Positions 5,571 through 52,544 of a stretch of DNA of 64,000 nt are shown in pieces. The notes under the pieces were generated by a model, which saw only the letters and a program-made list of their open reading frames with translations, did no database searches and had not been told where the DNA came from. Each line of letters opens with the position of its first letter. Position 1 is the stretch's first letter. This DNA is from Chloroflexi bacterium TSY (GTDB lineage: Bacteria; Chloroflexota; Anaerolineae; Caldilineales; Caldilineaceae): assembly GCA_019217005.1 (NCBI GenBank), contig JAHBNG010000031.1:62001-126000 (forward strand), written 5' to 3'. The translations under genes were made by a program, and so were the position numbers.

Positions 5571-7069
5571 CTTTACTTTCTGGTAAAGGCTTGAGTGACA
5601 AAGGGCAAACCGAAAGGGGCGGAAAAAAGAATCCACCCTGAAAAAACGGGATAAAATGTAAAAATAGTGCTCGGCTAGTTTAAGCAGCGGCATTGAGGCG
5701 GCGATGAGCGAGAACGCCTTTAGGGAAATGGTGTGAAACCGAGGCCTTTTTCCGAAAGTCAGGGTCGAGTTGGTCAGGAGTTGGAAAAAGAGCACTCGAG
5801 AGAACACGGCGCAGCCTGCCGGGAGTGGATTGAGGCTCTCGATCCCAGTAGCCAGTCGGTATGGGAGGAAGAGAAGCGGCTAAATGGGAAAGAAGATTGC
5901 CAGCAAGCAGCCCCAGTTCAGGTAAGCGGAAACAAGCCTCATCGGCATGAACAAATTGACGATGTAAGCCAATCATCTGCTTGGAAGCCAAGGGGGGGGA
6001 GGTTCAACAGGCCAGCGTTCCAGGTAGACAAGATAAATGGTTTCAGGCTGCAAAGTCATAACGGTCGCCAAAACCAAAGGTGTGTTGTAGGCCGGATCCT
6101 GAATGACGTAAATCGAGTAGGTACGGTTGGCTGTATCCACCTTGGTTGTTCTGGGGACGAGATTGTGCCATGCTTGATAGCAAATCAGGCGACCACTATA
6201 GAGAAAGCGACCAGACGAGTCCGGAGTTGTAGCCTCGAGTCGCTTTCCTTATAGCTGCGAGAGCGGTCGCACAATATCACCATATTCAGGTGGTCTGCCT
6301 TTTCCTTTGCGTTTGGGGAACTCATTGCGGCGCACTGTGCAGTTAATGGCTTCCCGCAGGACAAATCGGTCTATGCCGCTTTCTAGCATTTCTCTGATTG
6401 TAAACCCGGCATCGACCACCGCCACTTCGTCTGACTCCAGTGATTTCTTCGTCTCTTTCAGCAGCTTTTTCCGAAACTCACTTTCCTTTGTTCCAACCGT
6501 GCATCTCATGATTGCCTTGAGCAGTGGCACTCGCTTCCCGCCTATCTCCCCGAGCTTATCATCACTCCAAAGATGAGCGGGCAATGCCCGACGAGCCGTT
6601 GAGTTATAGAGTCGGTTCACTTTCCCTTGCAGCTTCGGTCGCCAGAACCCTGTGATATCTATGCTTTTCACTCGGTACCCTTCTAACTTTTTTGCCTCCC
6701 ATTCCCTTTCCACTCCACTTCTTCTTGCCACGACCCCAGCAGACTTGTGATATCCCATGATCCATATCGAAAGCTCCACCAGCTTCGCCGGAGCTCCTCA
6801 TCTTCAAACCCGCTTTCTTTCAATGCGCTATGGATTGCTCCTCGACTTTTCAGAAACGACCCATTCAGCATTGCCCACATCAGACGCATTACATTTACGT
6901 TTGTTCCCATCGGCGTTACTTGCAATACATTCATCAGTGCTGCTATAGTTATTTCTGGTGCGGTTAGCATTCCTTCCTCCTTTTTGGGTTCTCTACCTTT
7001 AGGATGAACTGCTAACCGCTTTTTGTCACATTTCTCACCTCATCTCTTTTCTTTTACCAGAAAGTAAAG
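5571..7069 (-). mobile_element. IS4-type insertion sequence, copy 1
   Basis: A 1499-bp element bounded by perfect 17-bp inverted repeats, CTTTACTTTCTGGTAAA at 5571 and its complement ending at 7069. It is nearly identical, in inverted orientation, to the copy at 36199-37692. The 5-bp length difference is explained at least in part by a tandem GTGGA duplication near 6714 that breaks the transposase frame. Flanking bases do not form a clear target duplication, unlike copy 2. The element abuts the start codon of the UxaA-family gene. Confidence 0.92.
5680..6970 (-). pseudogene. IS4-family transposase, frameshifted (copy 1)
   Basis: DDE transposase reading frame starting MLTAPEITIAALMN at 6970 and ending near 5680, now in at least three frames. 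Asp-containing motifs SIDITGF and VAVVDAGF are visible. The IS4 signature Y-x2-R-x3-E-x6-K is present as YLERWPVEHPPLASK, although the reading frame is broken before it. One break is a 5-bp tandem duplication near 6714; another lies around 6245-6255. The breaks differ from those of copy 2, so the two copies decayed separately or carry different sequencing errors. Confidence 0.85.
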
Positions 7070-7169
7070 TTAAAGGATCCTTGTGATTCTCAGTCGATCC
7101 AAAATGTGTCTTGTGTTCGCCGAGTCGCCATGCATGGCGCAGCGTTCTCTAAGGCCGATCAAATTTTTA

Positions 7170-9803: not shown

Positions 9804-9876
9804 TGTGTACCACAAAGTGTATAAATGGAGCAGGCTCTCTGACGAAGGGGGCTCCACTTACACGCTTTGGGACACA
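9804..9876. repeat. Type A ~75-bp palindrome (A1), upstream of sigma gene
   Basis: One arm carries TACCACAAAGTGT, the other ACGCTTTGGGACACA, with centre CTCTCTGACGAAG. It is inverted relative to the three copies at 26357, 38256 and 41147. It ends 29 bp before the ATG at 9906, leaving just the ribosome site between. Confidence 0.85.
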
Positions 9877-9905
9877 CTACCTTGAGATCGGAGAGACAAA
9901 CAACG

Positions 9906-20881: not shown

Positions 20882-20965
20882 AATCAGTTTTTGGCATCAA
20901 GAACACCACTCATATGAATCAAGAGAACCTGATTGAGGAGTCGCTCAATCCCTCTGGGTGAGGCG

Positions 20966-21115
20966 TTCTCTATTACACGCAGTAGACATAATCCTGCACT
21001 TCTCAGTCAAAACAGACTCGAGCGTGCCAAATGGTCCGAGATTCTCTACTGCGTCTTTTTTCGCCATTTGAACGCTCTACCTCTGAGAAATCCTACTGCG
21101 TGTAATCTCTAATGC
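20966..21115. repeat. 150-bp palindromic MITE-like element, copy 1
   Basis: Ends TTCTCTATTACACGCAGTAG and the near-complement CTACTGCGTGTAATCTCTAA. Inner matching arms include GCCAAATGG/CCATTTG and TCTCAG/CTGAGA. The copy at 52359-52508 is the same length and differs at about 2 of 150 positions, so transposition was recent. There is no reading frame. It contains GCGTCTTTTTTCG, which might terminate transcription. Confidence 0.88.
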
Positions 21116-26356: not shown

Positions 26357-26431
26357 GTGTGTCCCAAAGTGTGTAAACGGAGACCGCCCAGTCAGAGAAT
26401 CTACTCCATTTACACACTTTGTGGTACACAC
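26357..26431. repeat. Type A ~75-bp palindrome (A2), between pheA and aroF
   Basis: Left arm CCCAAAGTGTGTAAA, right arm TTTACACACTTTGTGGTAC, centre CCCAGTCAGAGAAT. It ends 27 bp before the aroF ATG. A TTGACA hexamer adjoins its left side (26351), but no good -10 lies 17 bp away. Confidence 0.9.
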
Positions 26432-26458
26432 CCGCAATTTCTTTTGAGGAGGAAAATT

Positions 26459-36106: not shown

Positions 36107-36198
36107 TTATGTCCAAAGCCACTGGGTATGGATAATATGATCTTGACAAAAACTTCCTTCCACATCTAAGATTACATCTAAATGCAATCCTAATGTAA

Positions 36199-37692
36199 CT
36201 TTACTTTCTGGTAAAAGAAAAGAGATGAGGTGAGAAATGTGACAAAAAGCGGTTAGCAGTTCATCCTAAAGGTAGAGAACCCAAAAAGGAGGAAGGAATG
36301 CTAACCGCGCCAGAAATAACTATAGCAGTACTGATGAATGTATTGCAAGTAACGCCGATGGGAACAAACGTAAATGTAATGCGTCTGATGTGGGCAATGC
36401 GGAATGGGTCGTTTCTGAAAAGTCGAGGAGCAATCCATAGCGCATTGAAAGAAAGCGGGTTTGAAGATGAGGAGCTCCGGCGAAGCTGGTGGAGCTTTCG
36501 ATATGGATCATGGGATATCACAAGTCTGCTGGGGTCGTGGCAAGAAGAAGTGGAAAGGGAATGGGAGGCAAAAAAGTTAGAAGGGTACCGAGTGAAAAGC
36601 ATAGATATCACAGGGTTCTGGCGACCGAAGCTGCAAGGGAAAGTGAACCGACTCTATAACTCAACGGCTCGTCGGCATTGCCCGCGCTCATCTTTGGAGT
36701 GATGATAAGCTCGGGGAGATAGGCGGGAAGCGAGTGCCACTGCTCAAGGCAATCATGAGATGCACGGTTGGAACAAAGGAAAGTGAGTTTCGGAAAAGCT
36801 GCTGAAAGAGACGAAGAAATCACTGGAGTCAGACGAAGTGGCGGTGGTCGATGCCGGGTTTACAATCAGAGAAATGCTAGAAAGCGGCATAGACCGATTT
36901 GTCCTGCGGGAAGCGATTAACTGCACAGTGCGCCGCAATGAGTTCCCAAACGCAAAGAAAAAGGCAGACCACCTGAATATGGTGATATTGTGCGACCGCT
37001 CTCTCGCAGCTATAAGGGAAAGCGACTCGAGGCTACAACTCCGGACTCGTCTGGTCGCTTTCTCTATAGTGGTCGCCTGATTTGCTATCAAGCATGGCAC
37101 AATCTCGTCCCCAGAACAACCAAGGTGGATACAGCCAACCGTACCTACTCGATTTACGTCATTCAGGATCCGGCCTACAACACACCTTTGGTTTTGGCGA
37201 CCGTTATGACTTTGCAGCCTGAAACCATTTATCTTGTCTACCTGGAACGCTGGCCTGTTGAACATCCCCCCTTGGCTTCCAAGCAGATGATTGGCTTACA
37301 TCGTCAATTTGTTCATGCCGATGAGGCTTGTTTCCGCTTACCTGAACTGGGGCTGCTGGCTGGCAATCTTCTTTCCCATTTAGCCGCTTCTCTTCCTCCC
37401 ATACCGACTGGCTACTGGGATCGAGAGCCTCAATCCACTCCCGGCAGGCTGCGCCGTGTTCTCTCGAGTGCTCTTTTTCCAACTCCTGACCAACTCGACC
37501 CTGACTTTCGGAAAAAGGCCTCGGTTTCACACCATTTCCCTAAAGGCGTTCTCGCTCATCGCCGCCTCAATGCCGCTGCTTAAACTAGCCGAGCACTATT
37601 TTTACATTTTATCCCGTTTTTTCAGGGTGGATTCTTTTTTCCGCCCCTTTCGGTTTGCCCTTTGTCACTCAAGCCTTTACCAGAAAGTAAAG
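36199..37692 (+). mobile_element. IS4-type insertion sequence, copy 2
   Basis: A 1494-bp element with inverted ends CTTTACTTTCTGGTAAA / complement, flanked by a perfect 6-bp duplication ATGTAA (36193-36198 and 37693-37698). Nearly identical to copy 1 in the opposite orientation, so recombination between them could invert 31 kb. It separates pheT from a toxin-antitoxin pair and ends 20 bp before the antitoxin ATG. Confidence 0.94.
36298..37583 (+). pseudogene. IS4-family transposase, frameshifted (copy 2)
   Basis: Starts MLTAPEITIAVLMN at 36298. Frame breaks lie near 36674 (one base lost and two gained relative to copy 1), near 36800 and near 36955. The C-terminal part 36990-37583 keeps the IS4 YREK signature (YLERWPVEHPPLASK). 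Copy 2 has the intact version of the region where copy 1 carries a 5-bp duplication, so an intact transposase can be reconstructed by combining the two. Confidence 0.85.
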
Positions 37693-37712: not shown

Positions 37713-38006
37713 ATGGACAAAATACAACAGTTTGTGCCAATTACTGAAATGCGTTTGCGCCATTCACAAGTACTAGAGCTGCTTGATAACGGTCCGGTCA
37801 TTCTTGCACAGCGGTCAAAACCGACGGCAGTGTTGGTGAATGTTGATATGTGGGACAATGTCGCTGAGTATATTGACGAGTTGGAAGCGACGATTGATGC
37901 ACTCATGGCAGAATTAAAGATTGCCCGCGGTGAGACAGAGACTTATATTCTGGCGGAAAATGAAATCGCAGAGTGGGCGGGCGAAGATGAAAAAATACCG
38001 ACTTGA
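37713..38006 (+). CDS. Phd/YefM-family antitoxin
   Basis: 97 residues. The N-terminal part (FVPITEMRLRHSQVLELL, GPVILAQRSKPTAVLVNVDMWD) has the Phd/YefM DNA-binding fold; the acidic tail should wrap the toxin. Excellent AGGAGG ribosome site. It overlaps the toxin gene by 20 bases. The IS lies immediately upstream, so the natural autoregulated promoter is probably lost or displaced. Confidence 0.85.
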   Translation: MDKIQQFVPITEMRLRHSQVLELLDNGPVILAQRSKPTAVLVNVDMWDNVAEYIDELEATIDALMAELKIARGETETYILAENEIAEWAGEDEKIPT

Positions 38007-38277
38007 TATTGGGCTTGTTAAACGGCAGATCGATCGATTGCCTGGCCACATGAAAAGTCGCGTCAAAAAAGAAACTGCGCAGTTGGCACAGCAGCCGCGT
38101 CCGGCTCATGCGAAAGAACTGCGACTGCTACCGAACACCTATCGTATTCGTTTGGACAACCATCGTATCGTCTATCGAATTGACGATGAGATCGTTCTTA
38201 TCATCGTATTAAAGGTCGGACGCAAGCGCGGACCAGATTTCTACCAGGATATCGGGAGTGTGTCCCAAAGTGTGTAA
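37987..38277 (+). CDS. ParE/RelE-family toxin
   Basis: 96 residues: [20 protein letters not shown] and [19 protein letters not shown] are typical of RelE/ParE toxins, which cleave mRNA on the ribosome or poison gyrase. The start at 37987 lies within the antitoxin gene. The last residues (SVSQSV) and the TAA come from the palindrome at 38256-38333, so the C-terminus has been altered by that element. Confidence 0.85.
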
Positions 38278-38333
38278 ATGCAGCGGTTCTCTGACTGAGC
38301 AGTGTTTATTTACACGTTTTGTGGTATACACTC
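38256..38333. repeat. Type A palindrome (A3), upstream of trpB
   Basis: Left arm CCCAAAGTGTGTAAATG, right arm TTTACACGTTTTGTGGTATAC, centre TTCTCTGACTGAGCAG, identical in the centre to A4. It ends 26 bp before the trpB ATG and forms the 3' end of the toxin gene. Confidence 0.9.
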
Positions 38334-40999: not shown

Positions 41000-41146
41000 A
41001 TATATTGTCGGATGATCTATTTTTCGGAGCAGCCATATTGATATGATGAGCTGGAGAGACCAAGTTCCCCAAATCTACCACTATAGTAGTGACGGCTTCA
41101 GTAATCGATTACTTTCCGTACTTTTGGTAAGAGTCAATTGATTGGG

Positions 41147-41224
41147 GAGTGTATCCCAAAGTGTGTAAGTGCAGCGGTTCTCTGACTGAGCAGCGTTCAT
41201 TTACACATTTTGTAGTACACACTC
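41147..41224. repeat. Type A palindrome (A4), upstream of the sigma-BFN-ClpN gene
   Basis: Left arm CCCAAAGTGTGTAAGTG, right arm TTTACACATTTTGTAGTAC, centre identical to A3. It ends 26 bp before the ATG at 41251. Confidence 0.9.
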
Positions 41225-41250: not shown

Positions 41251-42834
41251 ATGTCAGAGGGGAAACAAACAGACGCAGAACTGGTCAGCGCAACGAAACT
41301 GGGTGATAAGCGTGCGTTTGGCGAACTGATTGAACGCCATCAAGCGATGGCGCTTCGGACTGCTCTGTTCAAGACTGGGAACGAAAGCGTTGCTGAGGAC
41401 TTGGTCCAAGAGGCTTTGCTTCAAGCCTATCTTTCGTTAAAGAATTTGCGCAATGAGAACCACTTCAAGAGCTGGTTTCGTGGCATTGTGCTCAATGTCT
41501 GCCGAAGTTTTCTGCGGGCGAAAAAGTTTCGTCCTCAGTCGCTTGATGCCATACTGGATGAAATCGAATCAGCCTCATCTGAATTCTGTTCCGTAGAGCC
41601 AGGACCAGATGAAATTATCCTTGATCGCGAGTCGAGTGCCCAACTTCTGACCCACATCGATTCGTTATCCACGGAGAATCGACTCGTCACTCTGCTCTAT
41701 TACTACGGACAACTGAGCGTTCAAGAAATTGCGCAACACCAAAATATGACGATTTCGGCCGTCAAAAATCGGCTCTATAAGTCGCGACAGCGGCTGCGAG
41801 AACAGCTGACACAGGTGAGTCAAGAACAGATTAAACGAGAGAGCGAACAAACAGATGAACCGACAATTGAAAGGACAAACAACATGATCAAGGTATCCGA
41901 TGTCCACATTATACGGACGGAAGCAACCGAAAATTATATTGTTTTTCTACTCGAACAAACAAAGCAGCGGGCGGTACCCATTTGGGTCGGAGGAAGCGAA
42001 GGTGTCCAAATCCGTATGCAGCTCACTGGAGCGACGCCCCATAGACCAAAGACATATCATTTTGTAGCAAATATTTTGCAGACACTGGACGCCACGCTCG
42101 AGGAAGTGCGGATAGAGAGTTTGACCGGGGCCACTTTTTATGCCATTGCCAAACTAAAAGGACAAAACGGTGTCCATGAGTTAGATGTGCGGCCGAGCGA
42201 TGCAATCACACTTGCCTTGTATACCGGCAGGCCGATCTTCATAGCGGATGATGTGATGGGACAAGCCGGCAAAGCACTACCCGAGACCTTTGATCCAACC
42301 GCTTGGCAGTCTAAAGAAGCCGAGCGCGTGGCGAATTTGGAAGAGATGTATGGACTCGTGCAAGAGTGGGAACAAGAATGGGAAGAACAAGCCAAGGAAG
42401 GAATGAATCGCTTTACAATACACGCGCGTCAAGCATTTGACCTGGCGAAGTCGGAAGCGAAGCGTCTACGACACAACTACCTTGGTACAGAACATCTCTT
42501 GCTGGGATTGGCTCAAGATACGGAAGGTGTAGCGGCCAAAGCGTTGCAAGAATCTGGTGTTAGCGCCAAAGAAGTGACCGAGGCTGTAGAAAAGACAATT
42601 GCACAAGGGCTGGAAGATGAATCCGTTGAACCCACCGTCGCACCAAGGGTCAAACATGTCATTGCCCTGGCGGCCGAAGAGAGACGAGTCATGGGACATC
42701 GCTACATCGGTACAGAGCACCTGTTGCTTGGGTTAATGCAAGAAGGCAAAGGCGCTGGTGTACAGGTTCTAATTTCTCTCAACCTCAATCTCAACCGAGT
42801 GCGTTCACGTATTCTAGAAGTTTTTGGTGGTTGA
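41251..42834 (+). CDS. ECF sigma factor fused to bifunctional-nuclease and ClpN domains
   Basis: 527 residues in one open frame. Residues about 10-195 form an ECF sigma factor: region 2 (AEDLVQEALLQAY, FKSWFRGIVLNVCRSFL) and region 4 (VQEIAQHQNMTISAVKNRLY). Residues 212-345 form a BFN/DUF151 domain (IKVSDVHIIRTEA, VPIWVGGSEG, LDVRPSDAITLAL). Residues 385-527 form a double Clp N-terminal domain (NYLGTEHLLLGLAQ, RYIGTEHLLLGLMQ). Internal ATGs at 41884 and 42403 have AAAGGA- and GGAAGGA-like sites, so shorter products are possible. Convergent with a ClpN-S2P gene. Confidence 0.85.
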   Translation: MSEGKQTDAELVSATKLGDKRAFGELIERHQAMALRTALFKTGNESVAEDLVQEALLQAYLSLKNLRNENHFKSWFRGIVLNVCRSFLRAKKFRPQSLDAILDEIESASSEFCSVEPGPDEIILDRESSAQLLTHIDSLSTENRLVTLLYYYGQLSVQEIAQHQNMTISAVKNRLYKSRQRLREQLTQVSQEQIKRESEQTDEPTIERTNNMIKVSDVHIIRTEATENYIVFLLEQTKQRAVPIWVGGSEGVQIRMQLTGATPHRPKTYHFVANILQTLDATLEEVRIESLTGATFYAIAKLKGQNGVHELDVRPSDAITLALYTGRPIFIADDVMGQAGKALPETFDPTAWQSKEAERVANLEEMYGLVQEWEQEWEEQAKEGMNRFTIHARQAFDLAKSEAKRLRHNYLGTEHLLLGLAQDTEGVAAKALQESGVSAKEVTEAVEKTIAQGLEDESVEPTVAPRVKHVIALAAEERRVMGHRYIGTEHLLLGLMQEGKGAGVQVLISLNLNLNRVRSRILEVFGG

Positions 42835-42910
42835 CTGGAACGAAGCGAGGGGAAGTGGCAAGTTACGCATCACTTGTCACCCATCTCTCTGCTGGGTGCA
42901 TTGATATCCC

Positions 42911-44167
42911 TTATCTCAAAAGCTCCCAAAAGCGAAATTGCGCAAATCCATAACCAGCTAAACCTGGGTCTACTTGAAATAGTTCCAATGTGCGAACAAT
43001 ACTATCCCAAAACACAACCCGGATTGGTGAATCGATGAAAAAGAGAAAGAAGATCAAGAAGAAGGTCAGTCCACCCAAAGATTGGAGCGTATTGCGCACA
43101 TTATCCGGCATAAATGGGGCTAAAATATTAAACCCATCCAATCCGGGAATAGGAATCAGGTTGATAATGATGGCAGTAATTTGGAGCAGAATCAGTAGAG
43201 CCACACCGCTCCAAAATTCAAGGTGCTGGAATTGTTCGGGCTGCGAGAGACCAATAAAGAAGGGAATCGATAGCAACAAGCAGAAGATGAGATTGGCGAG
43301 TGGTCCCGCAGCAGAGACAAAGCTCATCATGCGTTCGCTGCGGATTGCACTACGGTCTATGTAAACAGCGCCGCCCGGTAAACCGATTCCTCCCATAATG
43401 AGGAAAAGCAAGGGCATGGCGATACTCAACAAGCCATGGGTATATTTCAACGGGTTGAGGGTCAAATAGCCCTTATCAACTACGCTGTGATCTCCTGCAT
43501 AGTAAGCAACCGCAGCATGACCAAATTCGTGCAGCGCTAAGGAGATCACCCAACCGCCCGTGACAAAGATAAAGACAGCAAAGGGGCTGGCAAACGTAGG
43601 TGAATAGCTGGCGTAACCAGCTAACGCAGTCAACAAAACAATTGCGATAAAGACCGGACTGATGGAGAAAGGGTTCCGTGTGACAATACCTCCTGAACTC
43701 GAACCGGAACGCTCTCTGCTTTCACCAGCATATTCACGTACAGCTTGTACATGGACATTGTATTGGGACAAGAGTTGTTGAGCATATCCTTTTGTCTGAT
43801 TCAAAATCCCCACGAGAAGATGTCGCGTTGTAACACCGAAGACCTGGTCTCCTGCCGCCTCGATTAACGCCTCGTCAACCACTGCCCGCGCCGAACTGGC
43901 CATGTATGACCAAGCCTCTTCGTCCTCTGACGATTTGGGGCCACTCATCCACTCGGGACTGTCTTGGCCCAGTTGATTTTGAAACTCCTTTAGATTTACC
44001 CCTATTTTCGCCAATACCTGCCGGGCATCACAGCGTTTTAGCTCCAGCATTGCATAGAGAAAGTGCTCGGGTACGACTTGGCGACTCTCATCTGATTCAT
44101 GTAGCTTGCGGGCGCGTGTGACAATATGGAGGGCTTCTGCCGTGAAACGTGCATAGATATCGGGCAT
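42911..44167 (-). CDS. ClpN-fused site-2-protease-like M50 metalloprotease
   Basis: 418 residues. The N-terminal 150 carry two Clp-N-type repeats (VPEHFLYAMLELKR, TTRHLLVGILNQTK). Membrane segments start at about residue 170, with zinc motif HEFGHA and the third ligand motif NLIPIPGLDG, as in site-2 proteases that cut within the membrane. GLPGGAVYIDRS and SAAGPLANLIF fit the family. Start ATG follows GAGG. It is convergent with the sigma-BFN-ClpN gene 76 bp away. Likely role is regulated intramembrane proteolysis; the ClpN part would be cytosolic. Confidence 0.85.
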   Translation of the reverse strand: MPDIYARFTAEALHIVTRARKLHESDESRQVVPEHFLYAMLELKRCDARQVLAKIGVNLKEFQNQLGQDSPEWMSGPKSSEDEEAWSYMASSARAVVDEALIEAAGDQVFGVTTRHLLVGILNQTKGYAQQLLSQYNVHVQAVREYAGESRERSGSSSGGIVTRNPFSISPVFIAIVLLTALAGYASYSPTFASPFAVFIFVTGGWVISLALHEFGHAAVAYYAGDHSVVDKGYLTLNPLKYTHGLLSIAMPLLFLIMGGIGLPGGAVYIDRSAIRSERMMSFVSAAGPLANLIFCLLLSIPFFIGLSQPEQFQHLEFWSGVALLILLQITAIIINLIPIPGLDGFNILAPFMPDNVRNTLQSLGGLTFFLIFFLFFIDSPIRVVFWDSIVRTLELFQVDPGLAGYGFAQFRFWELLR

Positions 44168-52331: not shown

Positions 52332-52544
52332 AGCATTCTCTAATGCGAATGAGCGGCATTCTCTATTACACGCAGTAGACATAATCCTGCACTTCTCAGT
52401 CAAAACAGACTCGAGCGGGCCAAATGGTCCGAGATTCTCTACTGCGTCTTTTTTCGCCATTTGAACGCTCTACCTCTGAGAAATCCTACTGCGTGTAATC
52501 TCTAACGCCGGATCGAGTCGAGTATACTCGCATTAGAGAATGCT
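52332..52544. repeat. Outer palindrome (17-bp perfect arms) interrupted by the 150-bp element
   Basis: AGCATTCTCTAATGCGA (52332-52348) and its exact complement (52528-52544) flank the 150-bp element at 52359-52508. This looks like one palindromic repeat inserted into another. The bases just left, from about 52304, resemble 7113-7145. Confidence 0.75.
52359..52508. repeat. 150-bp palindromic MITE-like element, copy 2
   Basis: Same length as 20966-21115 and about 2 mismatches in 150. Same orientation. It lies in the 622-bp gap 52263-52884, which is filled by repeats and has no gene. Confidence 0.88.

Follow-up and report, generated by a model that had tools for sequence, protein, structure and literature searches.

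A recurrent sigma-BFN protein family with borrowed protease reader domains and a conserved candidate internal start

A plus-strand gene at 41251..42834 of a 64,000-nucleotide stretch of DNA from Chloroflexi bacterium TSY (contig JAHBNG010000031.1, positions 62,001 to 126,000; hereafter the window, with coordinates counted from its first letter) was found to encode a protein of 527 residues that joins an extracytoplasmic function (ECF)-type sigma factor, consisting of sigma2 and sigma4, to a BFN (DUF151) domain and a double ClpN domain. Sequence comparisons place this protein in a recurrent sigma-BFN family that borrows reader domains from proteases and carries an internal start, apparently under selection, at the junction between the sigma factor and the BFN domain. 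As a conserved methionine and a Shine-Dalgarno (SD)-like stretch coincide at this junction, the gene probably yields both sigma-BFN-ClpN and a free, predicted BFN-ClpN protein of 316 residues (41884..42834, plus strand). An earlier, sequence-only reading of this DNA had recognised the three fused domains, missed the start at 41884, and treated the gene and a convergent site-2 protease (S2P) gene as a possible signalling pair, a proposal that our genome comparisons do not support.

The three-domain composition was confirmed by Pfam and by the relatives described below. The sigma part (41326..41796, plus strand) contains Sigma70_r2 (residues 26-92) and Sigma70_r4_2 (residues 131-182), with regions 2 and 4 present and region 3 absent by Pfam, as in ECF sigma factors, and it matches the structures of SigW/RsiW (5wur) and SigmaE (1or7) in Foldseek searches. 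The BFN domain (41884..42273, plus strand; residues 212-341, Pfam BFN_dom 232-341, E 4.3e-28) carries an RPSDA motif, with R314-D317 nearly invariant and A318 invariant across 35 aligned proteins, and matches TM0160 (1sj5/1vjl) by both sequence and structure (template-modelling (TM) score 0.87). The double ClpN module (42415..42834, plus strand; residues 389-527, two Pfam Clp_N stretches, E 4.6e-31) matched ClpC N-domain structures with a best E of 5e-37 and a TM score of 0.93 to 8ibp; the open reading frame (ORF) ends after ClpN and has no AAA domain, so the protein is not a ClpC ATPase. A structure model of the whole fusion (mean predicted local distance difference test (pLDDT) score 87.3, predicted TM score (pTM) 0.47) returned ClpC N-domains, TM0160 and ECF sigma structures in Foldseek; because the pTM was only 0.47, the arrangement of the domains in the model was not interpreted. 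The terms "nuclease" and "ECF", as applied to this fusion from its sequence, are domain labels.

The fusion is recurrent. In a protein search from the window fusion, sigma, BFN and ClpN domains were found together by precomputed Pfam annotation in at least 21 clusters including the window among the best 120 of 4750 matches, the at least 20 other clusters being 32-47% identical to the window protein. A search with a relative as the query (best 120 of 1002 matches) added two further clusters of this kind and three that also carry a Lon N-domain, all five confirmed by Pfam, which brings the total from the best rows of both searches to at least 23 clusters without LON. In a quick-method tree of the sigma-BFN region with 93 rows (all 34 fused proteins and 59 of the 128 unfused ones), 16 ClpN-fused proteins including the window formed one clade with a support of 98 in the Shimodaira-Hasegawa-like approximate likelihood ratio test (SH-aLRT), four other ClpN-fused rows joined a Lon clade (support 87, not starred), and P0022, P0029 and P0077 were placed elsewhere on long or weakly placed branches. 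An assembly error is unlikely to have created the fusion, given the 20 other clusters with the same domains and the 16-member clade. Carrying any ClpN amounts to eight changes on this tree, and for the group with ClpN and without LON the starred branches force at least two changes, in principle one gain and one loss.

The TrpB-like protein of the window is 80-85% identical to proteins in 29 genomes, all from the order of genome G382 (the best 29 of 60 listed matches), and the window therefore lies in or close to that order, hereafter the order. Some relatives are named Caldilinea or Caldilineaceae (P0008 among the fusions, P0140 and P0144 among the S2P proteins). No ClpN-fused sigma factor was found in 46 genomes of the order, where the copy of G006 is cut by a contig end inside BFN, nor at 23 places of a class sample (hidden Markov model scan of loci, with the top four candidates per genome scored), nor among three matches in a phylum sample of 400 genomes (top three candidates per genome scored). 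Viral contigs gave no sigma-BFN protein and one weak S2P-type match. Among the best matches in open-licence papers, none described a sigma-BFN, sigma-ClpN or sigma-LON fusion; of the two combining "sigma factor" with "DUF151", one listed DUF151 in a table of marine correlations and in the other the match was to DUF1510. As a separate observation on the regions of sigma-BFN genes without ClpN (L196-L215), 15 of 20 share a protein like the 723-residue PA14-domain lipoprotein that is divergent from the sigma-BFN gene at L199, 11 contain carA and 13 a GNAT acetyltransferase (one member of each scanned), while argD-like and argB-like genes were each seen by eye in seven; these shared neighbours are candidates for target and context.

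At the junction of sigma factor and BFN domain, methionine is present in 160 of 162 sigma-BFN proteins, the exceptions being V and L, and it is kept in 24 of 25 other ClpN-fused proteins, with or without LON. In the window the corresponding ATG at 41884 is preceded at 8 nucleotides by the SD-like AAGGA (41871..41875, plus strand), within GAAAGGA at 41869-41875. The DNA behind this pattern was examined in 40 distinct matching loci, 36 of which cover both sigma and BFN and 34 of which have the junction methionine; L085 (contig end), L016 and L010 (ClpX type, see below) and L045 (coverage) were left out. An SD run of at least 5 nucleotides precedes the methionine in 33 of the 34 loci, at a distance of 5-12 nucleotides (mostly 6-8), and in 20 of 21 after rows more than 70% identical were removed. 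When synonymous codons were drawn from each gene's own usage, the mean numbers of loci with such a run were 4.25 for the set of 34 and 3.92 for the set of 21, with a maximum of 9 in each, and none of 2000 draws reached the observed values. At the one locus without such a run (L007), a further ATG lies three codons upstream and is itself preceded, at six bases, by AAAGGAG. Arginine in the seven codons before the methionine is encoded by AGG in 22 of 33 cases, compared with 49 of 831 at other positions, and of 154 internal methionines elsewhere only 21 are preceded by such an SD run (both counts from 23 representatives, including two ClpX-type rows). The conserved RRxxM/ERxxxM motif of the protein is therefore probably an encoded ribosome-binding site. 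Residues 201-208, just before the internal methionine, have a pLDDT below 50 in the fusion model and are taken as disordered. Selection of the internal start beyond what synonymous choice would give by chance thus appears well supported, and we think it very probable, on these sequence grounds, that the start is used. Two database proteins, P0021 (314 residues) and P0036 (316 residues), begin at the junction methionine and consist of BFN-ClpN alone; as their contigs are short (1324 and 1352 bases), they document what a gene caller selected rather than cellular production.

Domains from other proteases are found on related sigma factors. A LON substrate-binding domain (LON_N) follows BFN in at least 11 clusters, three of which continue with ClpN and eight of which carry LON_N alone (8 of the 11 were verified by Pfam scan), and the LON-bearing rows form one clade of the sigma-BFN tree (support 99), while ClpN rows fall in more than one clade of both the sigma-BFN and the ClpN tree. 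Other sigma relatives end in the ClpX zinc finger (zf-C4_ClpX) instead of BFN, as was found in all four that were scanned (E 4e-15 to 6e-12), comprising three cyanobacterial records and one metagenome-assembled genome labelled Gracilibacteria, which are 43-52% identical over their best segment; such a protein was matched at E <= 1e-60 in 7 of 185 genomes of the order sampled for it. Their junctions have methionine in 8 of 10 distinct loci (absent from L232 and L234; L228 and L229 are the same gene), and an SD run of at least 4 nucleotides in 9 of 9 rows (null mean 3.63, none of 2000 sets as high), falling to 4 of 9 for runs of at least 5 nucleotides (30 of 2000 null sets as high), a pattern only suggestive of an internal start. 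ClpN, LON_N and the ClpX zinc finger differ in fold and have a common role, each serving at the N terminus of an AAA+ protease as the domain that binds substrates or adaptors. The capture of ClpN and LON_N, the presence of the ClpX zinc finger and the recovery of plant UVR-DUF151 proteins in a CLPC1 trap (see below) together make it plausible that the sigma-BFN module is linked to Clp-type proteolysis; this much of the link between sigma factor and Clp degradation drawn by the sequence-only reading is retained, and the part that it gave to the S2P is not supported. Separately, we noted a sigma-BFN protein fused to FliMN_C (P0092; FliM/FliN C-terminal, SpoA-like), and assemblies of the types BFN-4xClpN-kinase, 4xClpN-2xBFN and ClpX zinc finger-4xClpN (P0046, P0057, P0058, P0066). 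ClpN seems to be a widely traded module in these bacteria.

The fused ClpN module of the window is 50-51% identical to the ClpC N-domain of nine genomes of the order, and window-type fused modules form a clade (support 97) that is sister to the ClpCs of the order (85, not starred). A second group of fused modules forms its own clade (98; P0024, P0028, P0250, P0291 and P0243-P0245). Since the fused modules form separate groups, the sigma-BFN line has likely captured ClpN more than once, as judged from the sequences. The modules of the S2P proteins form a third, distant group (88). The pocket glutamates are mostly retained in the fused modules (E32 in 20 of 21 and E106 in 18 of 21), and the residues of the resting-state contacts of ClpC are mostly lost (R9 is R in 7 of 21 and K85 is K in 4 of 21), these roles being assigned from the parts covered of PMC12583610; the E106 equivalent is R in 16 of 23 S2P modules. 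Such a residue pattern might fit a reader detached from its ATPase. With regard to candidate ligands, the window module keeps T7, E32 and E106 of the phospho-arginine pockets and has A at position 81, as does the ClpC of the order, and the arginine-kinase family PF00217 was detected in 1 of 46 genomes of the order by a search of unproven sensitivity that was positive in 0 of 14 control genomes; this scarcity of the kinase makes phospho-arginine less likely as the general signal. One of the cyclomarin-holding phenylalanines of ClpC2 presumably maps to position 80, which is F in 2 of 21 fused modules and V in the window, and antibiotic sensing of the cyclomarin (ClpC2-like) type was rejected for the window on account of this V. 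ClpS is a known ligand of ClpN domains; a search for its family was positive in 34 of the 46 order genomes and in 5 of 14 controls, and 1lzw and 1r6o were among the structure matches of the S2P model described below.

We propose that the gene encodes a nested two-product regulator, a cytoplasmic unit of sigma factor and regulator whose C-terminal module would read clients or adaptors of AAA+ proteases, and we put the chances of this proposal at about even. In ordinary ECF operons the anti-sigma gene follows the sigma gene, often starting at its end. BFN-ClpN would occupy this anti-sigma slot, right after sigma4 and with its own putative ribosome-binding site, in frame and with no intervening stop, and in view of this position the simplest reading of BFN and the domain that follows it would be as a regulator, fused and free. 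Translation from 41251 would give sigma-BFN-ClpN, in which BFN-ClpN would act as the cytoplasmic regulator of the attached sigma factor, while initiation at 41884, directed by AAGGA, would add extra free regulator that could assemble with the long form through BFN. The kind of reader domain suggests what would be sensed, namely the clients and adaptors of AAA+ proteases: ClpN, as a detached ClpC substrate or adaptor reader, would bind adaptors (ClpS, for example) or unfolded segments, and client load would alter the activity of the sigma factor, so that transcription would directly report the load on the protease. Production of the short protein, assembly through BFN, the ligand of ClpN and the direction of control are the steps that we infer in this scheme, and for the sensing of protease load itself we see the case for and against as close to balanced.

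Several observations weigh against the proposed regulator. A protease reader is absent from 128 of 162 sigma-BFN proteins, and ClpN is therefore an add-on to the module. The DNA in which the SD run was tested comes, apart from the window, from sigma-BFN genes without ClpN, two of the 36 loci (L008 and L012) have no methionine at the junction column, the SD of the window (5 nucleotides) is weaker than the AGGAGG of some relatives, and the internal start is less clear at ClpX-type junctions. A TGA breaks the sigma part in genomes G008 and G303, where the remainder is open. E32 and E106 may be structural residues, as they lie in a GTEH motif, and their conservation is then no proof of ligand binding. 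SD-like sites may also act as translational pauses.

Three other explanations were weighed against these data. It has been proposed that ribosomes slow down at SD-like sequences within genes, and the stretch at the junction might be a programmed pause that lets the sigma part fold before BFN is made, with no second protein; a pause has no need of a start codon, yet methionine is present in all but two of the 162 proteins and the spacing is that of a start, mostly 6-8 nucleotides, which leaves this explanation quite improbable. That the free BFN-ClpN protein is the main effector, as an adaptor or nuclease working with ClpC, with the sigma part controlling only the expression of its own gene, is also unlikely, though less so. 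It would agree with the stronger ribosome-binding signal of the internal start (SD of at least 5 nucleotides at 20 of 21 internal starts versus 4 of 14 main starts, an approximate comparison in which the main start could be picked in 14 of 20), with the presence of BFN-ClpN alongside kinases and without sigma, with the two sigma parts broken by TGA and with the enrichment of plant UVR2-4 proteins in the CLPC1 trap (PMC8889267, parts covered). Against it, sigma and BFN are read through without a stop in 162 proteins, an argument that is partly circular because these proteins were chosen for an open frame and split versions were not sought.

ClpN could instead be a degradation handle, on which docked adaptors deliver the fusion to ClpCP so that the sigma factor accumulates only while the adaptors are occupied by clients, and to this we assign the same low probability as to an effector role of the short form. 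The frequency of the ClpS family in the order is in its favour, as are the Clp-dependent degradation of AntA (ECF282) and the predicted Clp control of ECF115 in the parts covered of PMC8999054. It leaves the presence of LON_N or the ClpX zinc finger at the same place unexplained, and a substrate would not normally be expected to bear the reader domain of its own protease. A regulator that reads protease clients through its C-terminal module remains the reading that we prefer.

The convergent neighbour (42911..44167, minus strand; 418 residues) was correctly described by the sequence-only reading as a double ClpN domain joined to an S2P, and its stop codon lies 76 bases from that of the sigma fusion. 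Pfam finds Peptidase_M50 (E 8.7e-9) and one Clp_N stretch (E 6.9e-11); the second repeat of the divergent module (43718..44167, minus strand; about residues 1-150) was detected by alignment and model and not by Pfam, and R replaces the E106 equivalent in it. With HEFGH at 213-217, NLIPIPGLDG at 336-345 and long helices, the protein is by sequence an S2P of the M50 type. In its structure model (pLDDT 86.2, pTM 0.64) the match to ClpC N-domains spans about 140 columns, and no solved S2P structure was among the best 50 structure matches listed.

S2Ps activate ECF sigma factors through membrane anti-sigma factors, as in the RseP/RasP-type pathways, and the two adjacent genes, with ClpN in both proteins, could encode an S2P that cleaves or frees the sigma fusion, both ClpN modules meeting at the same Clp machine. 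We regard this as very improbable, and it was rejected as the principal explanation on genome counts, region scans and ClpN divergence. The genes are convergent and share no promoter, and by eye the fusion has no membrane segment. On visual inspection, in which no domain search was run, the ORFs beside it resemble trpB, trpA and a sugar ABC transporter, and no membrane anti-sigma factor was seen among them. The two ClpN modules are 22% identical and belong to different groups. The co-occurrence check proposed with the pair gave no shared genome. In the order (S2P at E <= 1e-15, sigma at E <= 1e-40) the S2P was matched in 3 of 46 genomes (G382, where the gene is apparently split over two contigs, G408 and G409), and none of these three had a sigma match; in the class (S2P at E <= 1e-40, sigma at E <= 1e-60) sigma-BFN was found in 22 and the S2P in 38 of 396 genomes, with no overlap (top four candidates per genome scored), and ClpN was seen at 19 of 30 fetched S2P loci. 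About two shared genomes would be expected by chance, so these counts indicate no association and not avoidance, and as no ClpN-fused sigma factor was seen in the sampled genomes, the exact pair lies beyond their reach. In scans of all stop-to-stop frames of at least 50 residues, genes for sigma or BFN were absent from 22 S2P regions (276 kb; 17 with ClpN), as were genes for S2P or ClpN from 20 sigma-BFN regions.

Coincidences of contig size were also considered for this pair. In two of 20 sigma-BFN-ClpN clusters the longest contig has the same size (4443 and 1765 bases) as one of 119 S2P contigs, a count equalled by 12 of 400 offsets, and the contig of 1765 bases is too short for both genes; among the 15 contigs that are big enough there is one match (4443; P0011/P0121), with at least one given by 27 of 400 offsets. 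These coincidences were set aside as too weak to use. The adjacent S2P is probably outside the proposed unit. As a separate observation, the ClpN-S2P genes of G408 and G409 (L222, L223 and L185) adjoin a permease, identified in the one case scanned as CitMHS with TrkA_C, and, among 20 other S2P regions, 4 likewise contain the CitMHS permease cluster (one member scanned).

Two products from one open frame, the short one without the N-terminal domain, are familiar from nested genes such as those for the short form of CheA and for Cas8/Cas11, and are what we propose for the sigma-BFN gene; we encountered no description of such an internal start in a sigma factor, although no literature search was aimed at it. 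The RseP/RasP pathways resemble the window in that an S2P and a sigma gene stand side by side, and differ in that here no membrane anti-sigma factor was seen by eye, the genes are convergent and no co-occurrence was found. Known ECF sigma factors with fused extensions resemble the window protein in that a regulatory module is joined to sigma2-sigma4 and a separate anti-sigma factor is absent; the extensions described in the parts covered of PMC8999054 are SnoaL, TPR, WD40 and Cys-rich modules, those parts contain no ClpN, LON_N, ClpX zinc finger or internal start, and the word "nuclease" is absent from its text. According to the parts covered of PMC10030653, mycobacterial ClpC2 (8AD9, 8ADA) is a ClpN protein that represses its own gene, releases it on ligand binding, and holds cyclomarin with two phenylalanines; it is thus likewise a DNA-acting regulator with a detached ClpC N-domain that senses a ClpN ligand, but it acts as a repressor, carries a dimerisation domain at its N terminus and has neither sigma nor BFN. 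The plant UVR-DUF151 proteins UVR2-4, enriched in the CLPC1 trap, likewise tie BFN/DUF151 physically to the ClpC system, but they have a UVR domain instead of ClpN, contain no sigma factor and belong to the plastid (parts covered of PMC8889267).

Several repeats were noted around these genes. Directly 5' of the sigma gene lies an 80-nucleotide repeat with inverted ends (41145..41224, no strand assigned), by eye like a miniature inverted-repeat transposable element, with a 91% identical copy at 38254-38333 and related ends at 9851-9881 and 26404-26434. Copies precede both the sigma gene and the trpB-like gene, and could carry or disturb their promoters. Elsewhere in the window, an element about 30 kb apart in two inverted copies (5571-7072 and 36196-37692), with several blocks 98-100% identical, is perhaps an insertion sequence, and a 154-nucleotide direct repeat (20962-21115 and 52355-52508) is 98% identical over a distance of 31 kb. 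Two overlapping small ORFs at 37713-38006 and 37921-38277 look, by eye only, like a Phd/YefM-type antitoxin and a RelE-type toxin.

The domain order, its recurrence, the several kinds of reader and the conservation of the internal start are observed directly. A family of sigma genes each carrying its own regulator fused and free, with sensors taken from the N-domains of ClpC, Lon and ClpX in different lineages, so that protease load would set transcription directly without a membrane anti-sigma factor, is a wider proposal, which we advance more tentatively, at somewhat below even chances. If it is true, bacteria would couple protein turnover to transcription by equipping a sigma factor with the reader domain of the protease itself, and a single nested gene would supply both sigma factor and regulator. 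Since related sigma factors bear ClpN (probably captured more than once), the Lon N-domain or the ClpX zinc finger, exchanging one reader for another would put the idea to the test. The BFN/DUF151 domain, which is poorly understood and in plants is tied to ClpC, would also gain a definite function, and because the internal start is invisible at the protein level, databases would list one of two products for many sigma-BFN genes.

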